DNA from: Komagataeibacter intermedius TF2
GTDB lineage: Bacteria > Pseudomonadota > Alphaproteobacteria > Acetobacterales > Acetobacteraceae
Assembly (NCBI RefSeq): GCF_000964425.1
Contig: NZ_BANF01000062.1
Location: forward strand, 1-63,661
Length of the DNA stretch: 63,661 nt
Direction of reading: 5' to 3'
Shown here: piece after piece, positions 15,415-61,118 of the stretch
How positions within the stretch are numbered: the stretch's first letter is position 1
How the letters are laid out: each line of letters begins with the position of its first letter
The notes under the pieces: generated by a model
The model's input: the letters and a program-made list of their open reading frames with translations, nothing else
Told to the model about the DNA's origin: nothing
The model's database searches: none
Position numbers and translations under genes: made by a program

Positions 15415-15505
15415 TGTTTGGGGGCGTCGCCTTTTCAAAAAGGCGACGTTTTTTAGCTTTCGGTCGATTTACAGGATGTTTCACCAGCAGACTTTTAAAA
15501 CAGTC
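15415..15505 (+). repeat. Interspersed double-hairpin repeat, copy A (diverged)
   Basis: The first hairpin has CGTCGCCTTTT (15425-15435) against AAAAAGGCGACG (15437-15448) and is followed by TTTTTT, so this copy probably also terminates dadA. The second hairpin is degraded, but the flanking words TTTCACCAGCA and CTTTTAAAACAGTC line up with the end of the other copies. It is in the same orientation as copies D and F. Confidence 0.65.
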
Positions 15506-15530
15506 CGCCAGCCTGCCGGACGCTGACCAT

Positions 15531-15563
15531 AAAAAAAGCCCGGTTATCAAACCGGGCTTTTTT
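15531..15563. terminator. Bidirectional intrinsic terminator
   Basis: GCCCGGTT (15538-15545) pairs with AACCGGGC (15550-15557), with seven A before and six T after. It can end transcription of the leftward His-rich gene (stop at 15616) and any rightward read-through from dadA. Confidence 0.85.
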
Positions 15564-15615
15564 CTTGGCTATCCCTGCCAGTATCACGAGGATACCGGCA
15601 AGAATGCAGTAATGA

Positions 15616-15888
15616 TTACTGCGCCGCCGGAGCAGCCGGAGCCGCATCCGTGGATTCCGCCTTCTTCGCACCGTGGTGACGGCCGCTGTGATGGTGGCTA
15701 CCGTGATGCTTCGCCTTCTTGGCGCCAGCTTCGGCAGGAGCGGCACCTTCAGCTGCGTCAGGTGCGTGTTCCGGTGCGGAAACGGCCGGGGTGGTCGGTT
15801 CGGGCGTCTGGGCCATGACGGGGGCGGCGACACCCATGACGGCAACGGCGGACAGGGCAGCCAGGAAGCGACGGGGGGAAACGATCAT
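15616..15888 (-). CDS. Small secreted Ala/His-rich low-complexity protein
   Basis: 90 residues. A signal peptide (1-26, ending near APVMAQT) precedes a mature part made almost only of Ala, Pro, Glu, Lys and His. A His/Lys-rich centre (KKAKHHGSHHHSGRHHGAKK) sits between acidic Ala/Pro-rich ends. The ATG at 15888 has a good ribosome site, TTGGAG nine bases upstream. The composition resembles acid-shock (Asr-like) proteins or periplasmic metal buffers; both are guesses from composition. It has its own terminator and is probably monocistronic. A longer frame to 15981 is open but lacks a signal sequence at its start. Confidence 0.72.
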   Translation of the reverse strand: MIVSPRRFLAALSAVAVMGVAAPVMAQTPEPTTPAVSAPEHAPDAAEGAAPAEAGAKKAKHHGSHHHSGRHHGAKKAESTDAAPAAPAAQ

Positions 15889-16115
15889 ATAAAAATACTC
15901 CAACAAATCAGGAATTCTGATCCTAATGCGTCTATCGGGCGACGAATCGGTACACCCGGGCCGACCCTCTTGCTGTAACATGTCGCAGGGGGATCGTCTC
16001 GGATTAAAATTCTTAAATTTATTAGGAATGTCTTACTTTTGCCCCATGGTGACCGCAATCTCAAGAACTGAAACGTAACTAAAGATTACAGTCACCACAC
16101 CGGGCAGGCAGCAGA

Positions 16116-17939
16116 TCAGTCAACCGCGCCGGAACGTTCGCGCTTCTTGCGTTCATGCGGGTCAAGGTAGCGCTTGCGGATACGCACGGCGGACGGGGTG
16201 ACCTCGACCAGTTCATCATCCTCGATATAGGCGATGGCCTGCTCCAGGTTCATCTTGCGCGGCGGGATCAGCAGCAGGGCCTCGTCCTTGCCGGCGGCAC
16301 GGATGTTGGTCAGCTTCTTTTCACGGATCGGATTTACTTCCAGATCATTCTCACGCGAATGCTCGCCAATGATCATGCCGACATAGACCTTTTCGCCCGC
16401 ATCGACGAACAGGGTGCCACGATCCTGCAGCGAGAACAGCGAATACTGCGTGGTCGCGCCATCTTCGGACGAAATCAGCGAACCGTTCCGACGGCCGGCA
16501 ATCGGGCCGACATAGGGCTGGTACCCATGGAACAGGCGGTTCATGATGCCCGACCCACGCGTATCGGTCAGGAATTCGCCATGGTAGCCGATCAGCCCGC
16601 GCGACGGGATCAGGAAGCTCAGGCGCACCTTGCCGCCGCCAGACGGCTGCATGTCCTGCATGATACCCTTACGCAGCGCCATCTTTTCAACCACGACGCC
16701 CGAATACGGCTCGTCCACGTCAATCAGGACTTCCTCGAACGGCTCTTCGCGCTCGCCGGTTTCCTCGTTGGTGCGGAACAGCACGCGGGGACGACCGATG
16801 GTCAGTTCGAATCCTTCGCGACGCATCTGCTCGATCAGGACGCCAAGCTGCAGTTCGCCACGACCAGCGACTTCGAAGGCCTCGCTCTCGGGGCTTTCGG
16901 ACACGCGGATGGCGATGTTGCCTTCCGTTTCCTTGAACAGGCGGTCACGGATCTGGCGCGACGTGACCTTCTTGCCTTCACGGCCACCAAGCGGGCCGTC
17001 ATTGAGGCGGAAAGTCATGGACAGCGTCGGCGGGTCAACCGGGGTGGAGGGCAGCGGTTCCTTGACTTCCGGAGACGCGATGGTCTCGGGAATCGTCGCT
17101 TCCGACAGGCCGGCCACGGCCACGATGTCACCGGCTTCGACTTCTTCCACCGGCACGCGGTCAAGCCCACGGAAGGACAGCAGCTTGGTCAGGCGGCCGG
17201 TTTCCACAACCGAACCATCGGGACGCAGCACATGCACCGGCATGTTCATCTTCGCCGTGCCCTGCTCGACACGACCGGTCAGCACGCGGCCAAGGAAGTT
17301 GTCGTTTTCCAGGATGGTGGCGACCATCGCGAACGGCGCATCCTTTTTCACGTGCGGCGGCGGCACATGACGCAGGATCAGGTCGAACAGCGGGGACAGG
17401 TCCTTGCGCGGGCCATCGATTTCCGTATCCGCCCAGCCCTGACGGCCCGAGGCGTACAGCATGGGGAAATCAAGCTGTTCGTCATTCGCGCCAAGGGCTG
17501 CGAACAGGTCAAAGATCTCGTTATGGACTTCATCGGGACGGGCGTCGCCACGGTCGATCTTGTTGACGACCACGATCGGCTTCAGGCCGCGCGCCAGCGC
17601 CTTGCCCACCACGAACTTCGTCTGCGGCAGCGCGCCCTCGGCGGAGTCGACCAGCACGACCGCGCCGTCAACCATGCTCAGGATACGCTCCACCTCGCCG
17701 CCGAAATCGGCATGGCCCGGGGTGTCGATGATGTTGATGCGGGTATCCTTCCACACGACGGACGTGCACTTGGCCAGGATCGTGATGCCACGCTCACGCT
17801 CCAGGTCGTTGCTGTCCATGGCACGTTCGGCAACGTGCTGGTTGTCACGGAAGGAACCGGACTGTTTCAGAAGCTGATCGACCAGTGTGGTCTTGCCATG
17901 ATCGACGTGCGCGATAATGGCGATATTGCGGATATCCAT
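16116..17939 (-). CDS. typA: Translational GTPase TypA/BipA
   Basis: 607 residues, the normal TypA length. G1 is AHVDHGKTT at 10-18, followed by the G3 region DTPGHADFGGEVER and G4 NKID. Domains II, III and the BipA-specific C-terminal domain (SLFSLQDRGTLFVDAGEKVYVG) are all present. TypA binds the 70S ribosome and aids 50S assembly and growth under stress. ATG 17939 (MDIRNIAI) is the conserved start; the frame is open 19 codons upstream with no similarity. It lies 189 bp downstream of the adenosine-kinase-like gene on the same strand. Confidence 0.96.
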   Translation of the reverse strand: MDIRNIAIIAHVDHGKTTLVDQLLKQSGSFRDNQHVAERAMDSNDLERERGITILAKCTSVVWKDTRINIIDTPGHADFGGEVERILSMVDGAVVLVDSAEGALPQTKFVVGKALARGLKPIVVVNKIDRGDARPDEVHNEIFDLFAALGANDEQLDFPMLYASGRQGWADTEIDGPRKDLSPLFDLILRHVPPPHVKKDAPFAMVATILENDNFLGRVLTGRVEQGTAKMNMPVHVLRPDGSVVETGRLTKLLSFRGLDRVPVEEVEAGDIVAVAGLSEATIPETIASPEVKEPLPSTPVDPPTLSMTFRLNDGPLGGREGKKVTSRQIRDRLFKETEGNIAIRVSESPESEAFEVAGRGELQLGVLIEQMRREGFELTIGRPRVLFRTNEETGEREEPFEEVLIDVDEPYSGVVVEKMALRKGIMQDMQPSGGGKVRLSFLIPSRGLIGYHGEFLTDTRGSGIMNRLFHGYQPYVGPIAGRRNGSLISSEDGATTQYSLFSLQDRGTLFVDAGEKVYVGMIIGEHSRENDLEVNPIREKKLTNIRAAGKDEALLLIPPRKMNLEQAIAYIEDDELVEVTPSAVRIRKRYLDPHERKKRERSGAVD

Positions 17940-18128
17940 AAGTGCTCTTGACCTGACTTTCCTTGGCGGACGCCATAAGGGGGCGCAGCGGCACATGCGG
18001 GGGGCACCCGTGCGTGCGGCGGCGTAATGAGTGGCTGCTGCGTGCGTAGATAAAGCGGAAAAGCGCGGATTGCACGCGAAACTTCGTGCCCGCGCCCATC
18101 ACACGCCCGGCAGAACGCGCCCTGTGGA

Positions 18129-19151
18129 TCAGAAATCCATGTCCTGACGCATGTTCATGAGCGGCCGCGCACCGTAATGCGAGATGACTTCCGACGCCGC
18201 GACACTGCCCAGACGCCCGCATTCCGCCAGCGTCCGGTCCGATGTCCAGCCCGCCAGGAACCCCGCGGCATAGGCGTCACCCGCGCCCGTGGTATCGATC
18301 ACCTGCGTGCGGACGCTGTCGATCACAATGCGCTGCTGGTCCTGAATAATGATGCTGCCCCGTTCGGACCGGGTCAGGACGGCGAAATGCGTCTCGGCCG
18401 AGACAAGGCGTGCGGCCTCGTCAAAATCATCGGTCTGGTACAGGGCGCAGATCTCGTCCTCGTTGGCGAACAGGATGTCGATATGCCCGCGCACCAGTTC
18501 GTGGAAGGCATGGCGGTGACGGTCCACGCAGAACCGGTCGGACAGAGACAGGGCGACCTTGCGCCCGGCGTCATGCGCAATGCGGGCGGCCGTGCGGAAA
18601 GCTTCCTGCGCATCGGGCGGATCGAACAGGTAGCCTTCCATGTAGATGACCTTCGATGCACGCACGACATCAACCAGCACGTCTTCGGGGCTGAAGGTGA
18701 CGCATGCGCCCAGATAGGTGTTCATGGTGCGCTGGCCATCGGGCGTGACCAGAATGATGCAGCGCGCGGTGGGATGGTTTTCCCCCGCGTCACCCTGCAG
18801 CGGGGAAGACGGGAAATACACGCCCGCCGCCTGCATGTCGGCAGCAAAGGCCTGTCCCGGCGCATCCGCCGCCACCTTGCCCAGATAGGCCACGCGCGCG
18901 CCCATGTTGGACGCCACCACGCAGGTATTGGCGGCGGACCCGCCGCCCATTTCCTTTTCACGCCTGATCTGGGCATACAGCGCCCTGGCGCGGTCGGCGT
19001 CGATCAGCGTCATGCTGCCGGGCGTCATGCCGTTATTCTGCGGGAAGGCCGCGTCCACCGGTGCCAGGACATCGACAATCGCATTGCCGATACCCAGCAG
19101 ATCAAACCGGCATTCCGCCGCCTGTCCCGTATTTTCCATCTTCTGTTCCAC
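18129..19151 (-). CDS. PfkB-family carbohydrate kinase, adenosine kinase-like
   Basis: 340 residues. It begins with DLLGIGNAIVDVLAPVD, the start typical of bacterial adenosine kinase-like PfkB proteins, has the N-terminal GGGSAANTCVVASNMGA loop, and ends with the PfkB anion-hole signature DTTGAGDAYAAGFLAGW holding the catalytic Asp. It would phosphorylate adenosine (or a related nucleoside or sugar) with ATP in the cytoplasm. The start could be ATG 19151 or ATG 19139. The substrate is by family resemblance only. Confidence 0.85.
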   Translation of the reverse strand: MEQKMENTGQAAECRFDLLGIGNAIVDVLAPVDAAFPQNNGMTPGSMTLIDADRARALYAQIRREKEMGGGSAANTCVVASNMGARVAYLGKVAADAPGQAFAADMQAAGVYFPSSPLQGDAGENHPTARCIILVTPDGQRTMNTYLGACVTFSPEDVLVDVVRASKVIYMEGYLFDPPDAQEAFRTAARIAHDAGRKVALSLSDRFCVDRHRHAFHELVRGHIDILFANEDEICALYQTDDFDEAARLVSAETHFAVLTRSERGSIIIQDQQRIVIDSVRTQVIDTTGAGDAYAAGFLAGWTSDRTLAECGRLGSVAASEVISHYGARPLMNMRQDMDF

Positions 19152-19441
19152 TACCCGTCATCAATTCAGTCACATGTGCGGAAAGAGCGTCCGGACGCCA
19201 TGAAATAACCCATTTTTTCCCGCATGGTCCGGCCCATCGCTATCATTGGTGGGTAAGCAGCGCAACGCATGATGTTTTTTATGCACCGCTGTTCCCCTCA
19301 ACGCCTCTTGTCGGCATGATGGGGGGGCGTATAACCGTTGCTAAGGGGGGGCTGCGGCCTGCAACACCAGCCCGCCGAAAGCGTATCTTCCGGTTCCGGG
19401 GCGCAACCCGTCCCGATACAGCATAACCAAGCGGGGTAATA

Positions 19442-20047
19442 TTGTTTAGACGACGCAAGCCAGCAGAAACCCAGCCACCCGCCCCGACCACGCCCCCCGC
19501 GCAACAGCCGGGCCGTCCAGCCACAGGCGGTGGCTCCTCTCCCTCAACCACACCTGCAAGCAAGGAAAAGACATCTATGGCCCGCCCCCCCTTCCCGCCT
19601 ACGCCCAACGCCCCTCCCGCGCCCGGCGGGGCACGTCCCGGCGCGCCGGGTGCCGCCGTCGCCAAGAAGGAAAATGACCGACGCACCCTGGTGGTGGGCC
19701 GTGGCATCAGCGTGCAGGGTACGATTCAGGACGCCGAGCGGCTGGTTGTGGAAGGCACGGTTGAATCTTCCCTGATCAACGCATCCGAGCTCCAGATCGC
19801 GCAGGGCGGCGTGTTCAAGGGCGAAGTCGAGGTTGAGGACGCCGAACTGGCTGGCACGATCGATGGTACGCTGACGGTGCGCGGCAGCCTGACCATCCGT
19901 TCGACCGGTCGGCTGCTGGGCAAGGCCAAGTGCCGTCGCCTGAAGGTGGAAGATGGCGGTCAGGTCACTGGCCAGCTGGAAATGATCACCACCCCTGCGG
20001 CACCGGCAGCAGCTCCGGCCACGCCGCCGCGTCCGGCTGCTGAATAA
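19442..20047 (+). CDS. Bactofilin (polymer-forming cytoskeletal protein)
   Basis: 201 residues. A Pro-rich unstructured N-terminal tail (1-75) is followed by the beta-helical bactofilin core at about 78-180, with repeated strands such as VGRGISVQGTI, LVVEGTVES, GGVFKGEVEV and GTIDGTLTV. Bactofilins polymerise without nucleotides and organise cell-wall or stalk growth zones. The frame begins with TTG at 19442 (MFRRRK-type start) behind GCGGGGTAATA; ATG 19577 would give a shorter tail but loses the basic start usual in the family. It stands alone and shares a terminator with convergent gcrA. Confidence 0.88.
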   Translation: MFRRRKPAETQPPAPTTPPAQQPGRPATGGGSSPSTTPASKEKTSMARPPFPPTPNAPPAPGGARPGAPGAAVAKKENDRRTLVVGRGISVQGTIQDAERLVVEGTVESSLINASELQIAQGGVFKGEVEVEDAELAGTIDGTLTVRGSLTIRSTGRLLGKAKCRRLKVEDGGQVTGQLEMITTPAAPAAAPATPPRPAAE

Positions 20048-20080
20048 GCATCCCGATCCGCCCGTACCCCGGGCGGATAC

Positions 20081-20117
20081 AAAAAACGCCAGTGGCAGCA
20101 ATGCCCTGGCGTTTTTT
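20081..20117. terminator. Bidirectional intrinsic terminator between bactofilin and gcrA
   Basis: CGCCAG-T-GGCA pairs with TGCC-CTGGCG, flanked by six A on one side and six T on the other. A second GC-rich palindrome (ATCCGCCCG/CGGGCGGAT, about 20054-20078) lies just upstream on the bactofilin side. Confidence 0.88.
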
Positions 20118-20140
20118 AATGCAATCCCTGTGGGGAATGG

Positions 20141-20746
20141 TCAGGCGACGTTATCGCGGCGGTCCCGCAATTTGACATAGGCAAGCTGCGCATGTTCCGC
20201 ACAGTACGGCTTGCCCGGCAGGGGGGTAGCGCCACAGAAGTGGAAACCCGGCGTGCCCGGATCACCCAGCGGCCAGCAGCAGGACTGGCTGCTGCGACGC
20301 CTGGGTTCACTGACCGGACGCAGGGCGGCCTTGGTCGCGCGGGTTGCGCGCGGCGCGGGAGCTGTTTCCGCCGCTGCCGGGGCCGCAGGCTTGGGCTGTG
20401 GTGCAGGCGTCGGGGCGGTCTGCGCTTTTGCAGGCGCCTTTTGCAGTGCCGGAGGCGCGGCAGGCGTTACGGCAGGTGCCGCAGCCTCGGCCGCAGGTGT
20501 CGTGGGCGTGCTTTCAACGGCGGGTTCCGCCGCCGGGGATGCCGCTGTGGTCGCGGCCGGCGCGGAAGCCGTCTTCGCCGCACGCCGGATGGGCGATGGA
20601 CGTGGTTTCAGGCCCAGACGGTGTGCCTTGCCAACCACCGCGTTCTTGGTCACGGATAGCTGACGCCCGATTTCTGCTGTCGACAAGCCCTGCTGCCACA
20701 GATCACGCAGGCGCGCGATCGTCTCCTCGGTCCATTCCATCGCCAT
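20141..20746 (-). CDS. gcrA: Cell cycle regulator GcrA
   Basis: 201 residues. The N-terminal DNA-binding helix-turn-helix reads WTEETIARLRDLWQQGLS and TKNAVVGKAHRLGL, matching the GcrA domain. A long Ala/Pro-rich linker (about 50-150) follows, then the conserved C-terminal segment CCWPLGDPGTPGFHFCG and PYCAEHAQLAY, which contacts sigma-70 in GcrA proteins. It is an alphaproteobacterial regulator that reads CcrM methylation at GANTC sites. ATG 20746 has AGGAG nine bases upstream; ATG 20740 is the start closest to Caulobacter GcrA. Confidence 0.94.
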   Translation of the reverse strand: MAMEWTEETIARLRDLWQQGLSTAEIGRQLSVTKNAVVGKAHRLGLKPRPSPIRRAAKTASAPAATTAASPAAEPAVESTPTTPAAEAAAPAVTPAAPPALQKAPAKAQTAPTPAPQPKPAAPAAAETAPAPRATRATKAALRPVSEPRRRSSQSCCWPLGDPGTPGFHFCGATPLPGKPYCAEHAQLAYVKLRDRRDNVA

Positions 20747-20890
20747 CGTTCTGCACTCCTTACGCGGAATGGTGGGAAATTAGGCTCATACCGTGCCCGA
20801 CTCAACTGTCAGGGCACAGATTCTTGTGGACGATTCTGCGCATAACCTGTTTGCAACCCCGGTAAAACCGCGCCGGAGCCGCAAACCGGG

Positions 20891-22078
20891 TCAGTCGTGG
20901 ATCAGCCTGACCTTCCCACCCGCGACACCCATGGTCAGGCGACCTGCCTTGAGTTCACGCGCCAGCTTGCCAAACACCTCGTTCCGCCAGCCATGAAAGG
21001 CGGGAATATCCGCCGCATCATCCAGAGCGAACCGGTCCAGATCCTCGGACGACGCCACCAGCTTGGGGGCGACCCGATGCGTTTCGCAGCAACTGGCCAG
21101 CAGCACCTTCAGCAGGGCGATCAGCGCAGGTGACGGACGCTGCGCATCCTTCGCCCGCCCCTTTGGTAAGCGCGGCAGGGTCGCTTCGGGTTCCGCAACG
21201 GCCTGCGCCACCGTTTCCAGCAGGGCCTGGCCACTGCGTCCTTCGGCAAAACCGCGCGAGACACCACGCACGCGGGCCAGCGCATCAATCGTGGCAGGGG
21301 CTGTTGCCGCGATTTCCATCAGGCTCTCGTCCTTCAGCAGCCGCTGGCGCGGGACGTTGACGCGCTGGGCCTCCCCCTCCCTCCACGCGGCAACCGCGCG
21401 CAGGATACCCAGCATCCGGCGGTTGTTGGTGCGCGGACGCATCTTTTCCCACAATGTCAGTGGGTCAGGGCGGAACGTGGTCGGATTGTTCAGGATATCC
21501 AGTTCCGCCGCGACCCAGTCCAGACGCCCTTCACGTTCCAGCTGGACCAGCAGCTTTTCATAAACCAGCCGCAGATACGTAACATCCGCCGCCGCATACC
21601 CGATCTGGGCCGGAGACAGCGGACGCGCCGCCCAGTCGGAAAAACGGTGCGACTTGTCTATCTGCACACCCAGCAGGGAGGAAACAAGGTTGTCGTACCC
21701 AACCTGATCGCCATATCCCGCCACCATGGCCGCGACCTGCGTATCGAACAGGGCGGCAGGCAGATGGTCGAACAGGTGCAGGAAAATTTCCAGATCCTGC
21801 CGCGCGGCATGGAAGACCTTGACCACGCTGGCGTCATCCAGCAGCGCGCCCAGGGATGTCAGGTCGATCCCCGGGGCGGTCGTGTCGATCACGACCACGT
21901 CTTTCTCCCCGGCCAGCTGCACCAGACACAGCTCAGGCCAGTAGGTGCGTTCGCGCACGAATTCGGTGTCGATCGTCACAAATGGCTCATGCCGCAGTCT
22001 CGCGGTTACAGCCTCAAGCTCCGCTGTGGTGGTCACCAGCACAGGGGCGGGAAATTCGGGTCGGGATACACGTGCCAT
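20891..22078 (-). CDS. rnd: Ribonuclease D
   Basis: 395 residues. The N-terminal DEDD exonuclease domain shows FVTIDTEFVRERTYWPELCL (Exo I, D and E), FHAARQDLEIF (Exo II) and IGYAAADVTYLRLVYEKL (Exo III, Y-x3-D). An HRDC-type region follows at about 210-300. RNase D trims 3' ends of tRNA precursors. The gene is on its own between gcrA and the divergent queF, with a 136-bp shared upstream region in which I see no clear operator. Confidence 0.94.
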   Translation of the reverse strand: MARVSRPEFPAPVLVTTTAELEAVTARLRHEPFVTIDTEFVRERTYWPELCLVQLAGEKDVVVIDTTAPGIDLTSLGALLDDASVVKVFHAARQDLEIFLHLFDHLPAALFDTQVAAMVAGYGDQVGYDNLVSSLLGVQIDKSHRFSDWAARPLSPAQIGYAAADVTYLRLVYEKLLVQLEREGRLDWVAAELDILNNPTTFRPDPLTLWEKMRPRTNNRRMLGILRAVAAWREGEAQRVNVPRQRLLKDESLMEIAATAPATIDALARVRGVSRGFAEGRSGQALLETVAQAVAEPEATLPRLPKGRAKDAQRPSPALIALLKVLLASCCETHRVAPKLVASSEDLDRFALDDAADIPAFHGWRNEVFGKLARELKAGRLTMGVAGGKVRLIHD

Positions 22079-22214
22079 TCCGTGCAGTTATCATGCCTGC
22101 ACCCGATTGCGAAAGCGGGCAAAACCGCATGCCGCCCCCCTGTATTTCCGTTGACGGCGACCTGCCCCTTCCGGCATCAGCCACTCATCTTTTCCTGTTA
22201 TTGACGGACGCCCC

Positions 22215-22694
22215 ATGAATACCCGCCCCACAACCGATGACGGCAGCCAGTTCCTGACCCAGCTGGGCCAGAACAGCCAACAGCCCAACAGCCCGGAAGA
22301 AGCCAGGCTGGAACGCGTGCCCGCCCCCCAGCGCGGACGCAATTACGTCGTGCGCTTTACCGCGCCGGAATTCACATCGCTCTGCCCTGTCACCGGACAG
22401 CCAGATTTCGCGCATATCGTCATCGACTACATTCCCGATGAATGGATTGTGGAAAGCAAATCGCTCAAGCTGTTTCTGACCAGCTTCCGCAATCATGGCG
22501 CGTTCCATGAACAGTGTTCCATGCAGATCGCAACCACGCTGGTTGACGTGCTGAAACCGGTCTGGCTACGGATCGGGGCGTACTGGTATCCGCGCGGCGG
22601 CATGCCGATTGACGTTTTCTGGCAGACCGGCGCCCCACCCGAAGGCGTGTGGATTCCCGCGCAGGACGTGCCCGGCTATCGCGGTCGCGGCTGA
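22215..22694 (+). CDS. queF: NADPH-dependent 7-cyano-7-deazaguanine reductase QueF
   Basis: 159 residues, the short unimodular QueF type. The active-site Cys is in [20 protein letters not shown] (near residue 57), and the QueF substrate motif [20 protein letters not shown] follows. It reduces preQ0 to preQ1 in queuosine synthesis. The stop codon (22692-22694) touches the start of repeat copy B directly. No preQ1 riboswitch-like structure is evident upstream. Confidence 0.95.
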
Positions 22695-22803
22695 GAAACT
22701 GTCTGAAAAGTCCGCAGATCCCGGAGGTATTTCTGGTGACGCTTTCCTGCGATACCTTGAAAAATGTCGCCTTTTTGAAAGAAGGCGACATCCGGAAACT
22801 TTT
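22694..22803 (-). repeat. Interspersed double-hairpin repeat, copy B
   Basis: It begins at the queF stop with GAAACTGTCTGAAAAG, passes TTTCTGGTGACGCTTTC, and ends with the hairpin ATGTCGCCTT (22764-22773) / AAGGCGACAT (22782-22791) followed by CCGGAAACTTTT. Orientation is opposite to copies D and F. The GAAGC-type hairpin is degraded, and an extra segment is present near 22711-22730. Confidence 0.7.
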
Positions 22804-22852
22804 GTCATTCCATGCGGCAGATACTTCCAGACCGCTCCTGACGGACAGGCAT

Positions 22853-22884
22853 AAAAAAAAGCGCCCCGTGCAAGGGCGCTTTTT
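22853..22884. terminator. Intrinsic terminator of the ATP synthase operon (and queF)
   Basis: AAAAGCGCCC (22857-22866) pairs with GGGCGCTTTT (22874-22883). The A tract on the left gives a U run for the leftward atpC transcript, and the T tract on the right serves rightward transcription. Confidence 0.9.
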
Positions 22885-22931
22885 CGCAGGTCCATTGTAA
22901 TCCGGCCCTGACTACAGGGCAGGAAAACCCG

Positions 22932-31029: not shown

Positions 31030-31054
31030 AAAGGCGCCTCCGGGCGCCTTTTTT
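31030..31054 (+). terminator. Intrinsic terminator of secE-nusG
   Basis: AAAGGCGCC (31030-31038), loop TCCG, GGCGCCTTT (31043-31051) and further T residues. It closes the secE-nusG transcript. Confidence 0.9.
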
Positions 31055-31065
31055 ATTGCCCGCGA

Positions 31066-31158
31066 CAACTGCAGGTCATCAAAATTTTCTGGTGAAGCTG
31101 TTTTCAAAAGGCTTCAGAGGACGCCGCCTTTCTGAAAAAGTCGGCGTCCGGAAACTGT
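31066..31158 (-). repeat. Interspersed double-hairpin repeat, copy C
   Basis: AAAATTTTCTGGTGAAGC leads into GAAGC (31094-31098) / GCTTC (31111-31115), then the second hairpin GACGCCG (31120-31126) / CGGCGTC (31142-31148), ending CCGGAAACTG. Orientation is opposite to D and F. It lies between the nusG terminator and the 3' end of pqiC, ten bases from the pqiC stop. Confidence 0.75.
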
Positions 31159-31168
31159 GAATCTTCAT

Positions 31169-37310: not shown

Positions 37311-37469
37311 TGACGCCTATCCTCCCAATTCCATTCCCGGTGCGTGCCCTATCGTGGCATCAGCCTGCCACGGCGGACATGGTGTTTATGACCGCAGGAC
37401 CGGACAGGAAGGGCTGATACAGGTCAGGCAGGAACTCTATTATAATAAACTGTTGATATATAATAATAA

Positions 37470-37550
37470 AAATTCCTGGGTGCCGCCTTTTCCCAAAAAG
37501 GTGGCATTCCCTGAAGCTTTTGAAAAAAGCTTCACCAGAACTTCCTTATG
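37470..37550 (+). repeat. Interspersed double-hairpin repeat, copy D
   Basis: It starts CCTGGGTGCCGCC, with hairpin TGCCGCCTTTT / AAAAAGGTGGCA (one G-T pair). Next is GAAGCTTTT (37513-37521) paired with AAAAGCTTC, then ACCAGAACTT. Same orientation as copy F. It lies 26 bp from the stop of the marR gene, which is on the opposite strand. Confidence 0.75.
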
Positions 37551-37575
37551 ATTCCTGGTTGGTACGGGCCGGCTT

Positions 37576-38091
37576 TCAGGACCCGCTCTCGCCGCATGGC
37601 GTGCCGACAGGCTCCATCATAACGCCCTCCGCCTGCCGCAGCACGTGCGACAGGACATCCATCATGTCCCGCGCCCTGTCGGCGGGCACGTCCTGCAGCA
37701 CCCGGGCCTCCATGGCCGCGCAGATCCGGTGCAGGGTCGCACATTTACGCCTGCCGCGCGGGGTCAGCACAAGGCTCTTGGCGCGCCGGTCCTCCTGATC
37801 TGGATGGCGTTCGACCAGCCCTTCTTCCTCCAGCAGGTCCAGCACGCGCACCAGCGCCGAACTGTCGGTATTCATGGCATGGGCCAGCGTGCGCTGGCTG
37901 ACACGGTCAGGCAGCATCATGAGGTACGCCAGCGGGCGCATCATCGCCATGCTCATGCCCTCGGGCCGCAGCGCACGGTCCAGACCAAGCCGCCACGTAT
38001 TGGCCAGCCGCATGGTCAGGAACGTCATCCGCATGTCCTGAAAGCCCGCGCCCTCTATATCAGGTAATGGTGAACGGTCAGCCATGCGCAT
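37576..38091 (-). CDS. MarR-family transcriptional regulator
   Basis: 171 residues. The winged helix reads RVSQRTLAHAMNTDSSALVRVLDLLEEEGLVERHPDQEDRRAKSL in short pieces: recognition helix TDSSALVRVLDLL (about 81-93) and wing RHPDQEDRRAKSLVLT, the usual MarR D-x-R-D-R region. MarR proteins are dimers that release DNA on binding phenolic compounds. It is divergent from the FUSC exporter gene, with paired sequence elements in the shared 232-bp region, so it most likely controls that exporter and itself. ATG 38085 is an alternative start. Confidence 0.88.
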   Translation of the reverse strand: MRMADRSPLPDIEGAGFQDMRMTFLTMRLANTWRLGLDRALRPEGMSMAMMRPLAYLMMLPDRVSQRTLAHAMNTDSSALVRVLDLLEEEGLVERHPDQEDRRAKSLVLTPRGRRKCATLHRICAAMEARVLQDVPADRARDMMDVLSHVLRQAEGVMMEPVGTPCGESGS

Positions 38092-52046: not shown

Positions 52047-52139
52047 GGACATGGCGGCCCTGCCCTATGGACAGGGCAACCAGAGCCACGGACCATTTCG
52101 TCAGCACGTCGATACAGGACAGCCGAAAGCGCTTTCCTG

Positions 52140-52243
52140 TGAAACGGCCTGAAAACTGGAGGAAATTTTGGGTGAAGCTTTTTTCAGAAAACTTCGAAAG
52201 GATGCCGCCTTTTTAAAAACAAGGCGGCACCCGGAAACTTTTA
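52140..52243 (-). repeat. Interspersed double-hairpin repeat, copy E
   Basis: GAAACGGCCTGAAAAC leads to TTTTGGGTGAAGCTTTTTT/AAAACTTC (partly paired), then GCCGCCTT / AAGGCGGC (perfect), then ACCCGGAAACTTTTA. The last TTA is the tetR stop codon (52241-52243) read on the other strand, so the repeat abuts the gene end. Orientation opposite to D and F. Confidence 0.75.
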
Positions 52244-52966
52244 TGATTTTTTAGCGGTACCGGATGCCGTGCGGTCCATCACTACCGGCGGCAGGCGCGG
52301 GGCATCACGCAGATAGGCATTGAGGAACGTCCGCACGGCGGAACGGGCAATGAATTCGATATGCGCCTGATCCGTGTCGACCGGCAATTGCAGCCGTGCG
52401 CGCGCCACGATCCGTGTCTGGCACAGGCCATAGAACTGCTCCGCCGCAAAAATCGGATCGGGAATGTTCAGCACGCCCGCATCGTTATGCTGCATAAGCC
52501 ACGCGGACAGGATGCCAATGGCCTTCTGCGGCCCATGCTTCCAGAAGGTTTCGGCAAGGTCGGGGAAATTCCCGGCTTCGGAAATGATGATGCGGTTGAG
52601 CATGAGCGACAGCGGCGATGTCAGCAGCCGGATCATGGCCACGGCCAGATGTTCCAGCGATTCCGTCAGGTTCGCCCCTTCATCAATCCGGCTGAACAGC
52701 AGGGGCATTTTCTCGCATGCGCACTGTTCCACGAAGGCGGAGAACAGCATGGCCTTGTTTTCGAAATAATTATACAGCGTTCCCTTGGACACACCGGCAT
52801 CGCGCGCGATGCCCGACATGCTGGCCCCTTCATATCCCTGTCGGGCGAAGACACGCGCGGCACCCGCCAGGATCTGCTGGCGCTTGGCCTCCGACGTACC
52901 GGAAAGCGGGCAGCTTTCAGCCTGAATCTGACCGGGCCGGTCTGGCGTGGTACCCATGGAAATCAT
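52241..52966 (-). CDS. TetR/AcrR-family transcriptional repressor
   Basis: 241 residues. The N-terminal helix-turn-helix is ILAGAARVFARQGYEGASMSG followed by ARDAGVSKGTLYNYFENKAML (in pieces, about 32-75). The C-terminal ligand domain resembles AcrR/AefR types. It is divergent from an outer-membrane efflux factor, and a strong TetR-like operator lies between the two genes, so it probably represses both. ATG 52957 is an alternative start. Confidence 0.92.
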   Translation of the reverse strand: MISMGTTPDRPGQIQAESCPLSGTSEAKRQQILAGAARVFARQGYEGASMSGIARDAGVSKGTLYNYFENKAMLFSAFVEQCACEKMPLLFSRIDEGANLTESLEHLAVAMIRLLTSPLSLMLNRIIISEAGNFPDLAETFWKHGPQKAIGILSAWLMQHNDAGVLNIPDPIFAAEQFYGLCQTRIVARARLQLPVDTDQAHIEFIARSAVRTFLNAYLRDAPRLPPVVMDRTASGTAKKS

Positions 52967-54766: not shown

Positions 54767-54877
54767 ATCCGGCGTTAAAGGCTTGGCGCGCACGCGCCAT
54801 GCTAGTATAAGCCGCCCCGTTCCCGACTGGATGGGCATATGCCGCCATACGGAACCACGGCGCAGGGACCTGTCATC

Positions 54878-55291: not shown

Positions 55292-55389
55292 TCCTACCTG
55301 TCCCCCGGCTGGATGATCCCAATTTGCCGAAACACGACAAAAGGGGGTTGCCAGCCGGTGCAGGAAAAGTTAGGAAGCGCGCATACAGT

Positions 55390-55464
<75 letters not shown>

Positions 55465-55771
55465 TGATTTTCCCTTACATTTCCATCAGAATGTCTGCCG
55501 GTTCTGCTTCCGGCAATTCCGGGACAGGGCGTGCGTGCCTGTCGGCAGCCAGCGACGGATGCAGGCATATGTCGACCCATGTCCTGCGGGATTTCTGACG
55601 CGTGGCGCATGAAGACATCTGCGGCCCCTCGACCCGGTGCGCCGGCCTGAATATGCTGTCACGACTGCCTGACCCGACCCGTACAGGAACGGGTGGAACC
55701 GCTTCTTCTTGTGAATTCCGCGGCTCCCATATTAAAGCAGCGCAGGCGGTTACGGGAACGGTAGGCTCCTC
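55465..55771. other. Gene-free stretch between tRNA-Thr(GGT) and hldE
   Basis: 307 bp without a credible gene. It contains one short inverted repeat, ACCCGT-acagga-ACGGGT (55677-55694), about 80 bp before hldE, and presumably the hldE promoter, which I cannot place with confidence. Confidence 0.35.
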
Positions 55772-57232
55772 ATGATTGAGAACATGCATTTCGGCACCAT
55801 TGCCATTGTGGGCGATGTGATACTGGACCGTTACATTTCCGGTCGGATCGACCGGATTTCGCCCGAAGCGCCCGTGCCTGTTCTGGTGCATGAACACCTT
55901 GATATCGTGGCAGGCGGGGCGGCAAATGTCGCAGCGAATGCGGCGGCGCTGGGGGCGCGCGTCTGTCTTGTCGGTCTGGTGGGGGTGGATGAACACGCCA
56001 CCCGACTGTCCCATACCCTTGCACGCTGGGACCAGATCGATACGCGTGGACTGGTGCGCGACGCCCATCGCCAGACCACAACCAAGACACGGGTCATGAG
56101 CGGACGCCAGCAGATCGTCCGGATTGATAACGAGGACACACACCCCCCCGAACCCGCCATACAGGCCGAACTGGTGAAGCAGGCGTATATGGCCATTGAC
56201 GGGGCGGATATCCTGATCTGTTCGGATTATGGCAAGGGCGTTCTGGACGACAGCGTGCTGGACGCCGTCATCGCGCATGCACGCGCGCGCAATATCCCCG
56301 TCATCGTTGATCCCAAGCGCACGTCCTTTGCCGCCTATCGCGGGGCGACGCTGGTCACGCCCAACCGGCAGGAACTGGCGCGCGCAACCGGCCTGCCGGT
56401 ACGGACGGACGATCAGATCACCGCAGCCGCCCGCGCGGCGGGCGCGCAGTCCGGCGGCAGCATACTGGTCACCCGTTCGGAAGAAGGCATGACCCTGTGG
56501 CAGGATGACGGAACGGTCAGCCATGTGCGCAGCCGGGCGGCCGAGGTATTCGATGTCTCCGGCGCCGGAGACTGCGTGGTGGCGACCGTGGCGGCCATCC
56601 TGTCGGCGGGGCAGTCCATGGAAACGGCTGTGACCATTGCCAACACGGCTGCCGCCGTGGCGGTGGGCAAGCTGGGGACGACCACCGTATCGCGTTCCGA
56701 ACTCAGCCACGCGCTGATGCGCGACATGCCGGATTCCGGCAAGCTCGTCACCCTGGAACAGGCGGCTGCCATGGCGCGGGACTGGCGGCATCACGGCGCG
56801 CGGGTTGTCTTTACCAACGGGTGCTTCGACCTGCTGCATCCCGGTCATATCTCGCTCATACAGGCTGCGGCGGCACAGGGGGACAAGCTGATCGTGGCGC
56901 TGAATACCGATCGCTCCGTCCGCCGCCTGAAGGGGGAAAGCCGCCCCATACAGGATGAACGCGCCCGGGCCACCGTGATCGGCGCGCTGCGCAATGTCGA
57001 TCTGGTCGTGCTGTTTGACCAGGATACGCCCAGGGAGGCCATCCGCATGATCCTGCCCGATGTCATCGTAAAGGGCGCGGATTACCGCGAGGATGAAGTG
57101 GTGGGGGGCGACATTGTAAAAGCCAATGGCGGTCGCGTCGTGCTGGTTGACATCATGCCCGGCAGATCGACCACCTCGCTTGTGAAACAGGCGGGCGGCC
57201 AGCCCGGAGCCGAGACTGATATCCCGGCGTGA
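55772..57232 (+). CDS. hldE: Bifunctional heptose 7-phosphate kinase / heptose 1-phosphate adenylyltransferase HldE
   Basis: 486 residues. The N-terminal PfkB-type kinase (1-325) has DVILDRYISGRIDRISPEAP and the GAGD signature VFDVSGAGDCVVATVAAIL. The C-terminal adenylyltransferase (345-486) has FTNGCFDLLHPGHI with the HxGH site. HldE makes ADP-D-glycero-D-manno-heptose for the LPS core. ATG 55772 follows GTAGGCTCCTC, a weak ribosome site. The stop overlaps the GTG of the next gene, an AGE-family epimerase. Confidence 0.96.
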   Translation: MIENMHFGTIAIVGDVILDRYISGRIDRISPEAPVPVLVHEHLDIVAGGAANVAANAAALGARVCLVGLVGVDEHATRLSHTLARWDQIDTRGLVRDAHRQTTTKTRVMSGRQQIVRIDNEDTHPPEPAIQAELVKQAYMAIDGADILICSDYGKGVLDDSVLDAVIAHARARNIPVIVDPKRTSFAAYRGATLVTPNRQELARATGLPVRTDDQITAAARAAGAQSGGSILVTRSEEGMTLWQDDGTVSHVRSRAAEVFDVSGAGDCVVATVAAILSAGQSMETAVTIANTAAAVAVGKLGTTTVSRSELSHALMRDMPDSGKLVTLEQAAAMARDWRHHGARVVFTNGCFDLLHPGHISLIQAAAAQGDKLIVALNTDRSVRRLKGESRPIQDERARATVIGALRNVDLVVLFDQDTPREAIRMILPDVIVKGADYREDEVVGGDIVKANGGRVVLVDIMPGRSTTSLVKQAGGQPGAETDIPA

Positions 57233-58398
57233 CGCCCGCCCGGTTCCAGTCATGGGCCGTACGGCAGGCGCTGCCGCTATGGTCTGAAAATGGTTTCGAC
57301 AGCCAGCGCGCCCTGTTTCATGAACGGCTTGATTTCAACGCGCGCCCCCTGCCCCTGCCTGCCCTGCGCCTGATGGTGCAGGCACGCCAGATCGCGACCT
57401 ATTGCCGCGCCGCCCTGCGTGGCGACTGCCCTGCGGGTGACATGGCCCTGCGCTGCCTTGCGGAAGTCGAACGCCGTTACCATCGTGCCGATGGCGCGGC
57501 GGGCTGGGTTTTCTCCCTCGCCCCCGATGGACGGCCTGCCGACCGGCGGCGGGACCTGTATACGCATGCGTTCATCCTGTTTGCCTATGCCTGGGCATAC
57601 CGGCTGTCGGGTGACCCGGGATTAAAGCGGCATGCCGCGGGTACCGCGACCGAACTGGAGACGATCTTCCACACTTCCGGACCGGGATTCATGGATGCCG
57701 TGCCACCCCATGACGCCATCCGGCGGCAGAACCCGCACATGCACCTGCTGGAAGCATGGCTGGCCCTGTATGACGCCACGGGGGAGGAAAATTACCGTGC
57801 CCGCGCGGCCCGACTGGTCACATTGGCCACCACGCGTTTCATCGATCCGGACAGCGGACTGCTGCTGGAAGATTTCAGCGCCGACTGGCAGCCCCTTCAT
57901 CCCGCAGGCAGGAACCGGGCGGAACCCGGCCACCTGCTGGAATGGTCATGGCTGCTGCATGAATACCTGCGCCTGTGCGCGCCCGGGGACGCGGCGACCA
58001 TCAGACAGGTTGCCGGCAGGCTTCATCTGACCGCGCTGGCCCATACGACCGGCATCATGCCACTCGTCATCCGCAATGCCGTCACACAGGACGGGCGGGT
58101 GGTGGATGGGGGCACGCGCATCTGGCCCCAGACGGAACTGATCCGCTCCCTTGGCGCAAACCAGTCCGCACCGGTGTCGTCTGGCATAATGCCCGGAATA
58201 CTGGCGCATTTCGCTACCCATTACATTCCATCGCACCTGAACGGGGGCTGGATCGACCGCCTTAATGCGGACGGGACAACACCCATGGACCATATGCCCG
58301 CCAGTTCATTGTACCATATTTACGGGGCGGTCTGTGACCTGACCGAAGGACACGGACACAGGGATGCGGCGGAAAACCTCTCGCACTCCGCGCCATGA
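57229..58398 (+). CDS. AGE-family sugar epimerase/isomerase
   Basis: 389 residues. It is predicted to be an (alpha/alpha)6 barrel of the N-acylglucosamine 2-epimerase/YihS/mannose isomerase family. Family features include RRDLYTHAFILFAYAWAY, the His-containing QNPHMHLLEAWLAL and EPGHLLEWSWLLHEYL, each carrying His or Glu residues near the active centre. It would interconvert 2-epimeric sugars or aldose and ketose. The GTG start overlaps the hldE stop (GTGA), linking it to heptose or LPS sugar supply. The exact substrate is unknown. Confidence 0.85.
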   Translation: MTPARFQSWAVRQALPLWSENGFDSQRALFHERLDFNARPLPLPALRLMVQARQIATYCRAALRGDCPAGDMALRCLAEVERRYHRADGAAGWVFSLAPDGRPADRRRDLYTHAFILFAYAWAYRLSGDPGLKRHAAGTATELETIFHTSGPGFMDAVPPHDAIRRQNPHMHLLEAWLALYDATGEENYRARAARLVTLATTRFIDPDSGLLLEDFSADWQPLHPAGRNRAEPGHLLEWSWLLHEYLRLCAPGDAATIRQVAGRLHLTALAHTTGIMPLVIRNAVTQDGRVVDGGTRIWPQTELIRSLGANQSAPVSSGIMPGILAHFATHYIPSHLNGGWIDRLNADGTTPMDHMPASSLYHIYGAVCDLTEGHGHRDAAENLSHSAP

Positions 58399-58482
58399 CA
58401 TCAACCGGGCCGGAGCATCTGCCGCGCAGGCGCACCCGTTGCGCCTGAGGACGCGCGGGTTTCCCGATAAGGAGGGACTGGA

Positions 58483-59808
58483 ATGAAAATTGCTGTTATC
58501 GGGGCAGGCTATGTCGGACTGGTCACGGGCGCCTGTTTTGCCGATTTCGGGCACGAGGTCCGCTGCATCGATACCGACCCGCGCAAGGTGGAGGCCCTGC
58601 GCCAGGGCAGGGTACCCATTTACGAACCCGGCCTTGCGGACCTGATCACCACCAACGCGGCGGCGGACCGCCTGTATTTCGACATGGACCTGGCATGGGG
58701 CGTGCAGGATGCGGATGCCGTCTTCATTGCCGTCGGCACTCCCTCGCGCCGGGGGGACGGACATGCCGACCTGCGCTATGTGTACGACGCCGCCCGCGCC
58801 ATTGCGACCGAATTGCGGGGTTATACCGTGGTCGTTACCAAGTCCACCGTGCCCGTGGGCACGGGCGATGAGGTTGAGCGCCTGATCCGCGAAGTCCGGC
58901 CCGATGCCGATTTTGCTGTGGCGTCGAATCCCGAATTCCTTCGTGAAGGGGCCGCCATCGGGGATTTCAAGCGCCCAGACCGCATCGTGATCGGCACGAC
59001 CGACCCGCGCGCGCGTGAGGTGATGGCGGAAATCTACCGTCCGCTGTTCCTCAATCAGGCCCCCATCATGTTTACCGACCGCCGCACGTCGGAACTGACG
59101 AAATACGCGGCGAATGCCTTCCTCGCCACCAAGATCACCTTCATCAACGAAATGGCCGATCTGTGCGAACGCGCGGGCGCCAATGTGCAGGATGTCGCGC
59201 GCGGCATGGGGCTGGATAATCGTATCGGGTCAAAATTCCTGCATGCTGGTCCCGGCTTTGGCGGGTCATGCTTCCCCAAGGATGTCAGCGCCCTGATCAA
59301 GACCGGGCAGGATTATGGCGTGCCGGGCCGGATTATCGAAGCCGTGGCCCATGTGAATGAACAGCGCAAGCGCGCCATGGGCCGCAAGATCATCCAGGCT
59401 ACGGGCGGGGATGTGCGGGGGCGGACGGTTGCCCTGCTCGGCCTGACCTTCAAGCCCAATACCGATGACATGCGCGATGCGCCCTCCATCGCCATTACCC
59501 GCGCCCTGCAGGATGCGGGTGCAACCATACGCGCCTTCGACCCCGTTGGCATGGACCAGGCGCGGCAGGTGCTGGATGGCATTACCTTCTGCGCCGATGC
59601 GTACGAAACGGTCACGGGGGCGGATGCCGTAGCGGTCGTGACCGAATGGGACGCCTTCCGCGCGCTGGACCTGCCGCGTATGCGCGGCCTGATGCACACG
59701 CCGGTGCTGGTGGACCTGCATAATGTCTACAATCCCGCTGATGTGGAAAAATCCGGGTTTTCCTATACCGGCATAGGACGGGGCCACACCGGCCCGAAAT
59801 CTGCCTGA
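58483..59808 (+). CDS. ugd: UDP-glucose 6-dehydrogenase
   Basis: 441 residues. The N-terminal Rossmann motif is GAGYVGLVTGACFADFGHEV. The catalytic Cys is C263 in GFGGSCFPKDV, and the C-terminal domain keeps GLTFKPNTDDMRDAPS. It oxidises UDP-glucose to UDP-glucuronate with two NAD+. Its product is the substrate of the epimerase that follows, and of glucuronate-containing exopolysaccharides such as acetan. AAGGAGG lies eight to ten bases before the ATG. Confidence 0.95.
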   Translation: MKIAVIGAGYVGLVTGACFADFGHEVRCIDTDPRKVEALRQGRVPIYEPGLADLITTNAAADRLYFDMDLAWGVQDADAVFIAVGTPSRRGDGHADLRYVYDAARAIATELRGYTVVVTKSTVPVGTGDEVERLIREVRPDADFAVASNPEFLREGAAIGDFKRPDRIVIGTTDPRAREVMAEIYRPLFLNQAPIMFTDRRTSELTKYAANAFLATKITFINEMADLCERAGANVQDVARGMGLDNRIGSKFLHAGPGFGGSCFPKDVSALIKTGQDYGVPGRIIEAVAHVNEQRKRAMGRKIIQATGGDVRGRTVALLGLTFKPNTDDMRDAPSIAITRALQDAGATIRAFDPVGMDQARQVLDGITFCADAYETVTGADAVAVVTEWDAFRALDLPRMRGLMHTPVLVDLHNVYNPADVEKSGFSYTGIGRGHTGPKSA

Positions 59809-59997
59809 ATGGGCTGCCATCCATTTTTACCGTTAGTCGTATCGTGGCCCATGTTCCCATTATCCGCCTGAAGATCATGCGCTTTTCCCGGTGCATCGCC
59901 CGCAGGCCGATCACGGGGCGGCAGACCATGGTGCATGACGTAGGAATGTGAACCGGGCAGGCTGTAACGGACTGCCTGGATTTTGGGGGAGTACGGA

Positions 59998-61020
59998 ATG
60001 CGTATCCTTGTTACCGGCACGGCCGGGTTCATCGGTTTTCACCTTGCCCGCCGCCTGCTGCGCGATGGGCATGACGTGACCGGCATTGATGGCATGACCA
60101 GCTATTACGATGTCAGGCTGAAGCAGAAGCGCCATGCCATGCTGCGGGAATTCGAACGCTTCACCTGCAACGAATTCATGCTGGAAGATGCGCAGGCCAT
60201 GGAAAACGCCTTTACCCGGTGCAATCCCGAACTGGTGGTCCACCTGGCGGCACAGGCCGGCGTGCGGTACAGCATCGAAAATCCCGGCACCTATATCAGC
60301 GCCAACCTGATCGGCACCTATAACGTGCTGGAACAGGCACGGCGGTGCCAGCCCGCGCACCTTATGATCGCTTCGACCTCATCCGTTTATGGCGCAAGCA
60401 GGGACGTGCCCTTTTCGGAATCCCAGCGCTGTGACCATCCGCTCAGCCTGTATGCCGCAACCAAGAAAGCCACGGAGGAACTGGCACATTCCTATTCCCA
60501 TATCTGGAAGCTGCCGGTAACCGCCTTCCGCTTCTTCACCGTCTATGGCCCATGGGGCCGGCCGGACATGGCGTTGTTCAAGTTCACGGCCAATACATTG
60601 GCGGGCAAGCCGATCGACGTTTACAACAATGGCAATATGGAACGCGATTTCACCTATATCGACGATCTGGTGGAAGCAATCTGCCTGCTGTCGCACAAGC
60701 CGCCACACGGGCCGGGCGAAAGTGATCCCGGCGCCAGCCCGGTTGCCCCCTACCGGGTCATCAATATCGGCAACAGCCACCCCGTCAGCCTGATGGCGTT
60801 CATCGAGGCGATTGAAAAGGCGCTGGGCCAGCCCTGCATCCGCAATTACATGCCCATGCAGCCCGGGGACGTGCCACGTACATGGGCCGACTGTTCCGCA
60901 CTGCAGGCGCTGACGGGTTTCCGCCCCGCAACACCGGTGCAGACAGGTGTGAATGCATTCGTGGAGTGGTACCGGCAGTACTATCACGCGCCGCAGACGA
61001 CGATTGCCAAACAGCAATAA
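59998..61020 (+). CDS. NAD-dependent sugar epimerase, UDP-glucuronate 4-epimerase type
   Basis: 340 residues of the extended SDR family. TGTAGFIGFHLARRLL is the NAD site (6-21), and the catalytic Y152-x3-K156 is in LYAATKKA. YYDVRLKQKRH (about 37-47) and MERDFTYIDDLVEAI are typical of UDP-glucuronate 4-epimerases (LspL/Cap1J), which make UDP-galacturonate. Position after ugd supports this, though C4-epimerases are hard to tell apart. ATG 59998 has GGGGGAG upstream. Repeat copy F starts right after the stop. Confidence 0.88.
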   Translation: MRILVTGTAGFIGFHLARRLLRDGHDVTGIDGMTSYYDVRLKQKRHAMLREFERFTCNEFMLEDAQAMENAFTRCNPELVVHLAAQAGVRYSIENPGTYISANLIGTYNVLEQARRCQPAHLMIASTSSVYGASRDVPFSESQRCDHPLSLYAATKKATEELAHSYSHIWKLPVTAFRFFTVYGPWGRPDMALFKFTANTLAGKPIDVYNNGNMERDFTYIDDLVEAICLLSHKPPHGPGESDPGASPVAPYRVINIGNSHPVSLMAFIEAIEKALGQPCIRNYMPMQPGDVPRTWADCSALQALTGFRPATPVQTGVNAFVEWYRQYYHAPQTTIAKQQ

Positions 61021-61118
61021 ACGTTTCCGGGTGCCGCCTTTTTCCCAAAAAGGCGGCGTTCTTCGAAGCTTTTTGGAAAAAGCTTCACCAAAAACGTCTT
61101 TCCGGACAGTTTTCAAAT
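61021..61118 (+). repeat. Interspersed double-hairpin repeat, copy F (best preserved)
   Basis: It starts directly after the TAA of the epimerase gene. Hairpin 1 is GCCGCCTTTTT (61033-61043) / AAAAAGGCGGC (61047-61057), perfect with a three-base loop. Hairpin 2 is GAAGCTTTTT (61065-61074) / AAAAAGCTTC (61077-61086), perfect with a two-base loop. It is flanked by GTTTCCGGGT on the left and ACCAAAAACGT and ACAGTTTTCAAA on the right. It fills most of the gap to the convergent gene ending at 61128. Confidence 0.85.

Follow-up and report, generated by a model that had tools for sequence, protein, structure and literature searches.

A repeat with a T-shaped core at gene ends in Komagataeibacter and Novacetimonas: a probable MITE with IS5-type ends

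Six copies of a palindromic repeat in the window

The window analyzed here, a 63,661-nt stretch of Komagataeibacter intermedius TF2 (contig NZ_BANF01000062.1, positions 1 to 63,661), carries six copies, A to F, of a palindromic intergenic repeat found next to the ends of genes. A covariance model of 32 copies (L024 and L025 were dropped from 34 rows; L and G numbers are our handles for loci and genomes) matches the window at 15409-15501 (A, + strand), 22719-22806 (B, - strand), 31075-31162 (C, - strand), 37465-37552 (D, + strand), 52155-52245 (E, - strand) and 61016-61105 (F, + strand). A sequence-only reading of this DNA had placed six double-hairpin repeats there, and the model recovers all of them at the places and in the orientations described. 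A stop codon adjoins every copy, at a distance of 0 nt for B, D, E and F and up to 14 nt for A.

Copy F (+ strand, 61002-61105; profile match 61002-61103) has the best-preserved core, with a score of 100 bits. The TAA that it carries at 61018-61020 serves as stop codon to an NAD-dependent epimerase gene, and the copy occupies most of the gap before the next, convergent open reading frame (61128). Copy E (- strand, profile match 52139-52255) consists of the core with partial arms, and the stop codon of a TetR-family gene, TAA at 52241-52243 on the reverse strand, falls at the TAA position of that core. Copy B (- strand, 22695-22838 from alignment and sequence; profile match 22696-22809) is nearly full length with both terminal repeats recognizable; on the + strand it is flanked by TGA at 22692-22694, where the QueF gene stops, and by TGA at 22839-22841. 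Copy D (+ strand, profile match 37442-37576) keeps the core and part of both arms, the 3' arm extending to where a MarR-family gene has its stop codon (from 37576). Copy C (- strand, 31075-31165 from core model and profile) is reduced to the core, and an ABC_trans_aux lipoprotein gene has its stop (31169) 3-6 nt away; on the other side of the copy the NusG gene retains a terminator-like hairpin at ~31030-31056. Among named genomes, the best NusG match is that of K. oboediens, with 100% protein identity, followed by those of other Komagataeibacter and Novacetimonas. Copy A (+ strand, profile match 15387-15505) is decayed: it begins 14 nt past the end of a DAO-family oxidoreductase gene (stop codon at 15370-15372) and ends in a remnant of the 3' terminal repeat, GACTTTTAAAACAGTC, at 15490-15505.

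A large family with a T-shaped core

The consensus core folds as a three-way junction, or T-shape, in which two hairpins are closed by an outer A/T-rich stem. The outer stem (AAGTTT..TGG/CCA..AAACTT) encloses hairpin 1, built of GCCGCC and a T-tract paired with an A-tract and GGCGGC, and hairpin 2, in which GAAGC and a T-tract pair with an A-tract and GCTTC. The consensus fold has an energy of -32.1 kcal/mol, where shuffled sequences average -16.3 (z -5.1), and the T-shape is not adopted by every single copy folded alone. The sequence-only reading had recognized the two hairpins and missed both the outer closing stem and the longer full element; what it took for the ends, ACCAAAAAC and ACAGTTT, belong in fact to the outer stem and to what is left of the terminal inverted repeats. 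The two-hairpin layout is present in C, D, E and F and absent from B, where hairpin 2 is degenerate, and from A, where hairpin 2 is gone.

The repeats are real and form a large family of Komagataeibacter and Novacetimonas. The covariance model, built from repeat copies, finds many more in the own genome and in related ones: at least 127 matches at E <= 0.01 in the own genome (among the best 150 of 1270 candidates scored) and from 50 to at least 109 in each of the other 18 Komagataeibacter genomes, so the prospect that few further copies exist, raised with the first description, is not borne out. A sequence profile scored at least 20 bits at 122 places across 1.24 Mb of Komagataeibacter DNA. 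Over 2.5 Mb of control sequence, reversed or first-order Markov, it reached that score nowhere and peaked at 10 bits, so the repeats cannot be put down to chance. A larger set comprises 240 elements in 2.44 Mb, with 117 in 1.02 Mb of G018 and 27 in 0.46 Mb of the own genome. Phage records contained no match to the element.

Terminal inverted repeats and target duplications

The complete element is 161-163 bp long and consists of 15-bp terminal inverted repeats (TIRs), GAGACTGTTTGAAAA/TTTTCAAACAGTCTC, around the T-shaped core. With at most one mismatch allowed, the 15-mer GAGACTGTTTGAAAA occurs in 19/19 genomes of the genus (6 times in the own genome, 93 times in G005 and 64 times in G015), and the reversed pattern, searched as a control, occurs in none of the 19. 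Many of these places pair as inverted repeats ~162 bp apart. We took 20 regions, two of which are wider TIR pairs; the other 18 gave 19 full copies from seven genomes. Since these copies were picked by the TIR pattern (at most one mismatch per end), the presence of TIRs in them is preset. They are up to 98.8% identical in pairwise comparison.

A search for target-site duplications, proposed with the first description, was productive: a perfect 3-bp direct repeat flanks 17 of the 19 full copies, and in 16 of the 17 it has the form TNA (TTA 9, TGA 3, TAA 3, TCA 1; the remaining one is ATA). Such TNA duplications mark the IS1031 group. The full-length element is too short for a transposase gene and, because of its 15-bp TIRs and 3-bp TNA duplications, is a miniature inverted-repeat transposable element (MITE) with IS5-type ends. 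For seven of the 17 duplications, the reading frame that ends in the duplicated stop is open across all 32 codons available. On K. nataicola plasmid pKNA07 the element directly adjoins the TAA stop of an aldo/keto reductase gene, and TAA appears again at the far end of the element; on N. hansenii plasmid p1 a full copy is flanked TAA/TAA. On an N. hansenii plasmid predicted to be conjugative, a full-length copy (L357, 1467-1628) has the same right flank as a full-length copy in G006 (L325), and a plasmid copy that shares its flank with a copy in another genome marks a possible route of spread.

Position at gene ends and history of sites

We placed the 240 elements relative to genes by simple gene calling, with gap expectations taken from gap length. 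Convergent gaps hold 129 elements (expected 49) and divergent gaps 15 (expected 61), with 76 in co-directional gaps and 20 inside called genes. A stop codon lies within 25 nt of 115/129 convergent and 50/76 co-directional copies, and for the co-directional copies the median distance is 16 nt to the stop upstream and 95.5 nt to the start that follows. As TNA covers both TAA and TGA, a copy that inserts at a stop codon would restore that stop through the duplication. TAA is the stop codon of 100/215 element-adjacent genes as against 394/1777 genes elsewhere (p 2e-13), an excess that is partly fed by copies whose own TAA serves as the stop: the gene stop coincides with the element's own TAA position in 12 copies, and in window copies E and F likewise.

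Among genomes in which both flanking genes were found, and with partial copies counted, site B is occupied in 11/14 and site C in 10/13. Within the xylinus group most sites are common to the members and differ by decay. In the family at large, many copies are without arms or without one hairpin. One site shows an apparent in-place inversion between closely related species: the element in G018 (208917-209001, joined coordinates) runs opposite to that in G004, G006 and G016, with the flanks unchanged; the orthologous gap in the window (4502-4529) has no element. Inverted copies make up 3/21 full-length ortholog pairs, all at a single site. Recombination or template switching between the outer arms would produce such an inversion; the alternative is that two copies once stood there and one was lost. 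The latter suits site B, where two copies in K. sp. FXV3, K. swingsii and K. diospyri, with one of them lost elsewhere, would explain the opposite orientations, and differential loss may have acted at other sites as well.

A candidate mobilizing enzyme and points against it

IS5-type transposase domains (PF13340) are present in 19/19 genomes, and a 930-bp IS5-type insertion sequence (IS) at L306 has ends GAGCCCGATCCGAAA and a TGA duplication. The element ends begin with GAG and are bordered by the 3-bp TNA duplication, which matches the rule for the IS5 family. In our judgment the copies are probably what is left of a MITE of Komagataeibacter and Novacetimonas, a non-autonomous element that was mobilized in trans by an IS5-type transposase and has remained beside stop codons. 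An IS5-family transposase would move the element in trans; insertion at a TAA or TGA stop would come at low cost, the TNA duplication rebuilding the stop; insertions in promoters or reading frames would be lost, leaving copies at stops and between convergent genes; and the paired hairpins would be a property of the mobile master copies.

Several observations weigh against this interpretation. The end of the 930-bp IS, the sole IS5-type IS with both ends read, shares only 9/15 bases with the element end by eye, and none of the few IS examined has the element's own terminal repeats. The examined pairs of TIRs ~1.0 and 2.8 kb apart enclose cytochrome c, dienelactone-hydrolase and LigD genes and no transposase. 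A Mutator-family transposase lies by a closely similar end (L335, G009) and is not the partner, because the other long G009 copies of that IS match only from base 21-24 of the stretch and the end lies outside the IS. The stop codon TAG, which a TNA duplication cannot make, is not significantly rarer beside elements (23/215 vs 263/1777, p 0.12), and no clean empty site was seen by eye in the xylinus-group comparison. Unpaired positions diverge more than stems (0.21-0.46 vs 0.09-0.27), which could mean some constraint on the stems. Profiles of equal length, each counted above its own best control score, match 35 times for the 5' arm, 196 and 184 times for two parts of the core and 30 times for the 3' arm; in most copies sequence conservation breaks off abruptly where the core ends; and 13 related stretches from other genera, described below, have no GAGACT arms.

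Further loci show how IS and element ends lie relative to each other. IS5 loci L328-L330 are without a matching end pair, the TIR-like end near the transposase in L329 being unpartnered. At L308 (G015:C52:11044-12089) facing element-type ends lie 1046 bp apart around a cytochrome c gene, which could be a composite mobile unit or chance neighbors. The same IS5-type IS (ends GGGTCTGTTGGGAATT; PF13340 in L332) is inserted in hairpin 2 at about the same point in G012 and G010. These insertions into the element lie at L331 170-200 and L332 225-265, with a further copy of the element after the IS in L332. It looks as if the IS with ends GGGTCTGTTGGGAATT targets the repeat, and some IS target repetitive extragenic palindromic sequences (REPs).

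The core as a possible separate unit

The core model matches 23/160 sampled genomes of the family, in 15/102 genera, and one further strong-scoring genus (g89) is probably Novacetimonas. From three genera with weaker scores we compared 13 stretches, drawn from five genomes (g37: G054, G144; g84: G172, G101; g5: G022). All 13 have the outer stem in common, and the minimum-energy fold is T-shaped by eye in 12 of them (all except L340), some of these folds containing a stem mismatch. The inner stems vary: CTCCC/GGGAG and GTTC/GAAC in G054, GGCCCC/GGGGCC or GGGGGC/GCCCCC in G172, and CTTC/GAAG types in G144 and G022. Four G054 copies are near-identical at unrelated places, and several stretches are directly preceded by a stop triplet, scored as a triplet only, reading frame aside. 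Named loci of other genera (L107-L169, 1.15 Mb) gave 0 outer-stem pairs vs 11 in 0.31 Mb of Komagataeibacter and Novacetimonas.

On Pseudoroseomonas cervicalis plasmids, two stretches have one hairpin and the A/T stem in common with the element, in a different order, and one of them fills the gap between convergent annotated genes. Another A/T-cored palindrome, CTTCTTTTTCTGAAGAAAAAGAAG followed by CAAAAAGACTT, stands right after stop codons in Gluconacetobacter (L110 and L111, in the site B gap) and on Pseudoroseomonas plasmids (L355 1424-1460 and L356 1424-1460).

Given that the arms are matched far less often than the core and that conservation has so sharp an edge there, the core may be, or once was, a unit of its own. 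An arrangement that we hold possible, though rather unlikely, is that the core is a mobile unit in its own right, an older T-shaped palindrome of Acetobacteraceae that was captured by an IS5-type MITE in Komagataeibacter, so that the 162-bp form is a composite. For full-length copies this overlaps with mobilization as a MITE. It would account for the sharp core edge, for the armless stretches in other genera and for the four near-identical G054 copies; yet no target duplication is readable by eye for core-only copies, and loss of arms also yields armless copies, with A, B and D keeping decayed arms.

Two readings thus face each other, an older core unit that an IS5-type MITE took up, or a fold that is itself the conserved feature. 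In the latter case the family would be defined by its fold, with the outer A/T stem and the T-shape constant at gene ends and the inner stems almost always paired, though differing between genomes and even among the copies within one genome. We put this forward as a tentative idea and think it doubtful. If it were true, the mobilizing enzyme or the host would recognize the strand in its folded form, either single-stranded DNA after extrusion or RNA of a bidirectional 3' end, and lineages would re-invent the inner stems. Stem exchange within one fold across genera is a testable question.

RNA selection and terminators

The repeat might instead be a functional 3'-end element, a bidirectional terminator or an mRNA-protecting structure, that was dispersed by mobility and then retained where genes end. 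Its position suits such a role, as copies adjoin stops and often fill the whole convergent gap, and so do the occupation of sites B and C in most genomes compared, the finding of the core several times more often than the arms, the lower divergence of stems than of unpaired positions and the recurrence of the T-shape in other genera with other stem sequences. Orientation relative to transcription, however, has no significant bias: co-directional copies are 40 sense and 36 antisense (p 0.73), and convergent copies, judged by the nearer gene, 74 and 55 (p 0.11). A sense bias in smaller sets (35/49 convergent copies of at least 30 bits; 28/43 co-directional copies) was not significant with 240 elements.

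Selection on RNA can be read from mismatches in the stems, as G-U pairs in the RNA of one strand and an A-C mismatch is pairable only in the other strand. With three base pairs omitted from the test, G-U and A-C mismatches are balanced: their ratio is 67:68 across the 75 sense elements and 46:44 across the 51 antisense ones (Fisher p 0.89). Hairpin 1 by itself leans toward an RNA role, with more G-U than A-C in sense and not in antisense elements (41:24 vs 20:21; p 0.16, and p 0.06 for copies of at least 40 bits), whereas hairpin 2 leans opposite to the RNA expectation (p 0.02).

Comparison of the same site across species points the same way as the overall balance. In 18 same-orientation ortholog pairs, whose sites are common to several species and therefore not independent, we counted 94 stem changes between Watson-Crick and not, G-U being counted as non-Watson-Crick, and 2 compensating changes in 537 pair comparisons. 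The divergence of stems (0.09-0.27) brackets that of 4-fold sites (0.13-0.17) in ortholog pairs where both copies score well. Between copies the picture differs: in the 32 rows of the model, 24 cells are changed on both sides vs 13.5 in shuffles, with 1/500 shuffles as high; the covariation score and the number of paired cells exceed all 500 shuffles, and the other two measures were reached by 22 and 226/500. The in-step variation of the first hairpin that the sequence-only reading had noted is accordingly present between copies (A/B GTCGCC/GGCGAC) and hardly seen at the same site across species. Because stems at shared sites change at about the 4-fold rate and many copies have lost arms or a hairpin, we read the between-copy covariation as variation among mobile master copies and not as RNA kept at each site. 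Rfam yields only 4 tRNAs in the window at gathering thresholds and nothing in the region of copy F up to E 1. With no overall G-U bias, almost no compensation in situ, 4-fold-like stem divergence and no Rfam match, the suggestion of a conserved RNA 3' element is not supported.

As for termination, the element itself scores as a canonical terminator, that is, a GC-rich hairpin followed directly by a T run, in 26/215 element-bearing gene ends by a crude predictor, in keeping with the earlier remark that it is not a simple terminator. A canonical terminator lies beside the element's place in most species in 5/6 gaps inspected by eye (B, C and three of four others); none was seen by eye in the gap at window 4502-4529. 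A terminator beyond the element is about as frequent as after genes without an element (4/39 vs 53/647; 7/47 vs 62/430), counts that carry little weight because the predictor is insensitive. In the gap at window 20047-20141, a terminator-like stretch, ACAAAAAACGCCAGTGGCAGCAATGCCCTGGCGTTTTTT, is near-constant in ten aligned genomes, and adjacent elements come and go. Overall, we consider a function at the 3' end improbable as the reason for which copies are kept.

Discussion

Mobilization of the family as REPs or REPINs by a REP-associated tyrosine (Y1) transposase, which palindromic, extragenic, high-copy repeats enriched at gene 3' ends would suggest, is refuted in this genus, barring a Y1 protein too diverged for PF01797 to detect: the Y1 domain, for which the first description had proposed a search, is found in 0/19 Komagataeibacter genomes, the own genome included, by a search that is positive in 5/14 named control genomes, and the length and terminal repeats of the element differ as well. 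Of the label of REP/MITE type given to these copies from sequence alone, the MITE half is upheld by the TIRs and target duplications and the REP half is not.

If the copies are relics of an IS5-type MITE, a single footprint, the TNA duplication by which a stop codon is restored, could explain why palindromic repeats crowd gene ends without having a function there. The family also illustrates that hairpins which co-vary between repeat copies can mimic selection on RNA that same-site comparison does not support. It is a large repeat family in industrial cellulose producers that is undescribed in the open papers searched, and it should be useful for strain typing and for work on genome stability. 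Our search of the open literature, by titles and the starts of abstracts and with subscription journals and ISfinder outside its range, found no description of the repeat, and the element's sequence strings led to unrelated papers only. By word search, neither "stop codon" nor "Komagataeibacter" occurs in a MITE review (PMC10969869), and in passages of PMC4686929 MITEs figure only in a general list.

The element can be set beside several known systems. Correia, ERIC and similar repeats are likewise palindromic intergenic repeats of ~100-160 bp, with other ends. REPs are palindromic and extragenic and lie near stop codons and between convergent genes. The element resembles the REP, BIME and REPIN families in all of these respects, but is longer, carries terminal repeats with a target duplication and resides in genomes without a Y1 transposase. 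Uptake-sequence terminators are also repeated inverted sequences at gene ends (PMC1852404); most copies of the element do not score as canonical terminators, and the full copies show the footprints of transposition.

With bacterial MITEs the element has in common that it is short, gene-less and present in high copy, with terminal inverted repeats and a short target duplication. It departs from them in its T-shaped core, its stop-restoring position, the apparent in-place inversion at one site and the existence of core look-alikes with other stems in other genera. From the IS5 family it differs in having no transposase gene and in matching the one IS compared at only the 9 of 15 end bases given above, whereas with IS1031-like members it shares GAG-starting ends and the 3-bp TNA duplication, as seen in the 930-bp IS at L306. 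IS1031 is itself an element long known from Komagataeibacter, according to PMC6528568.

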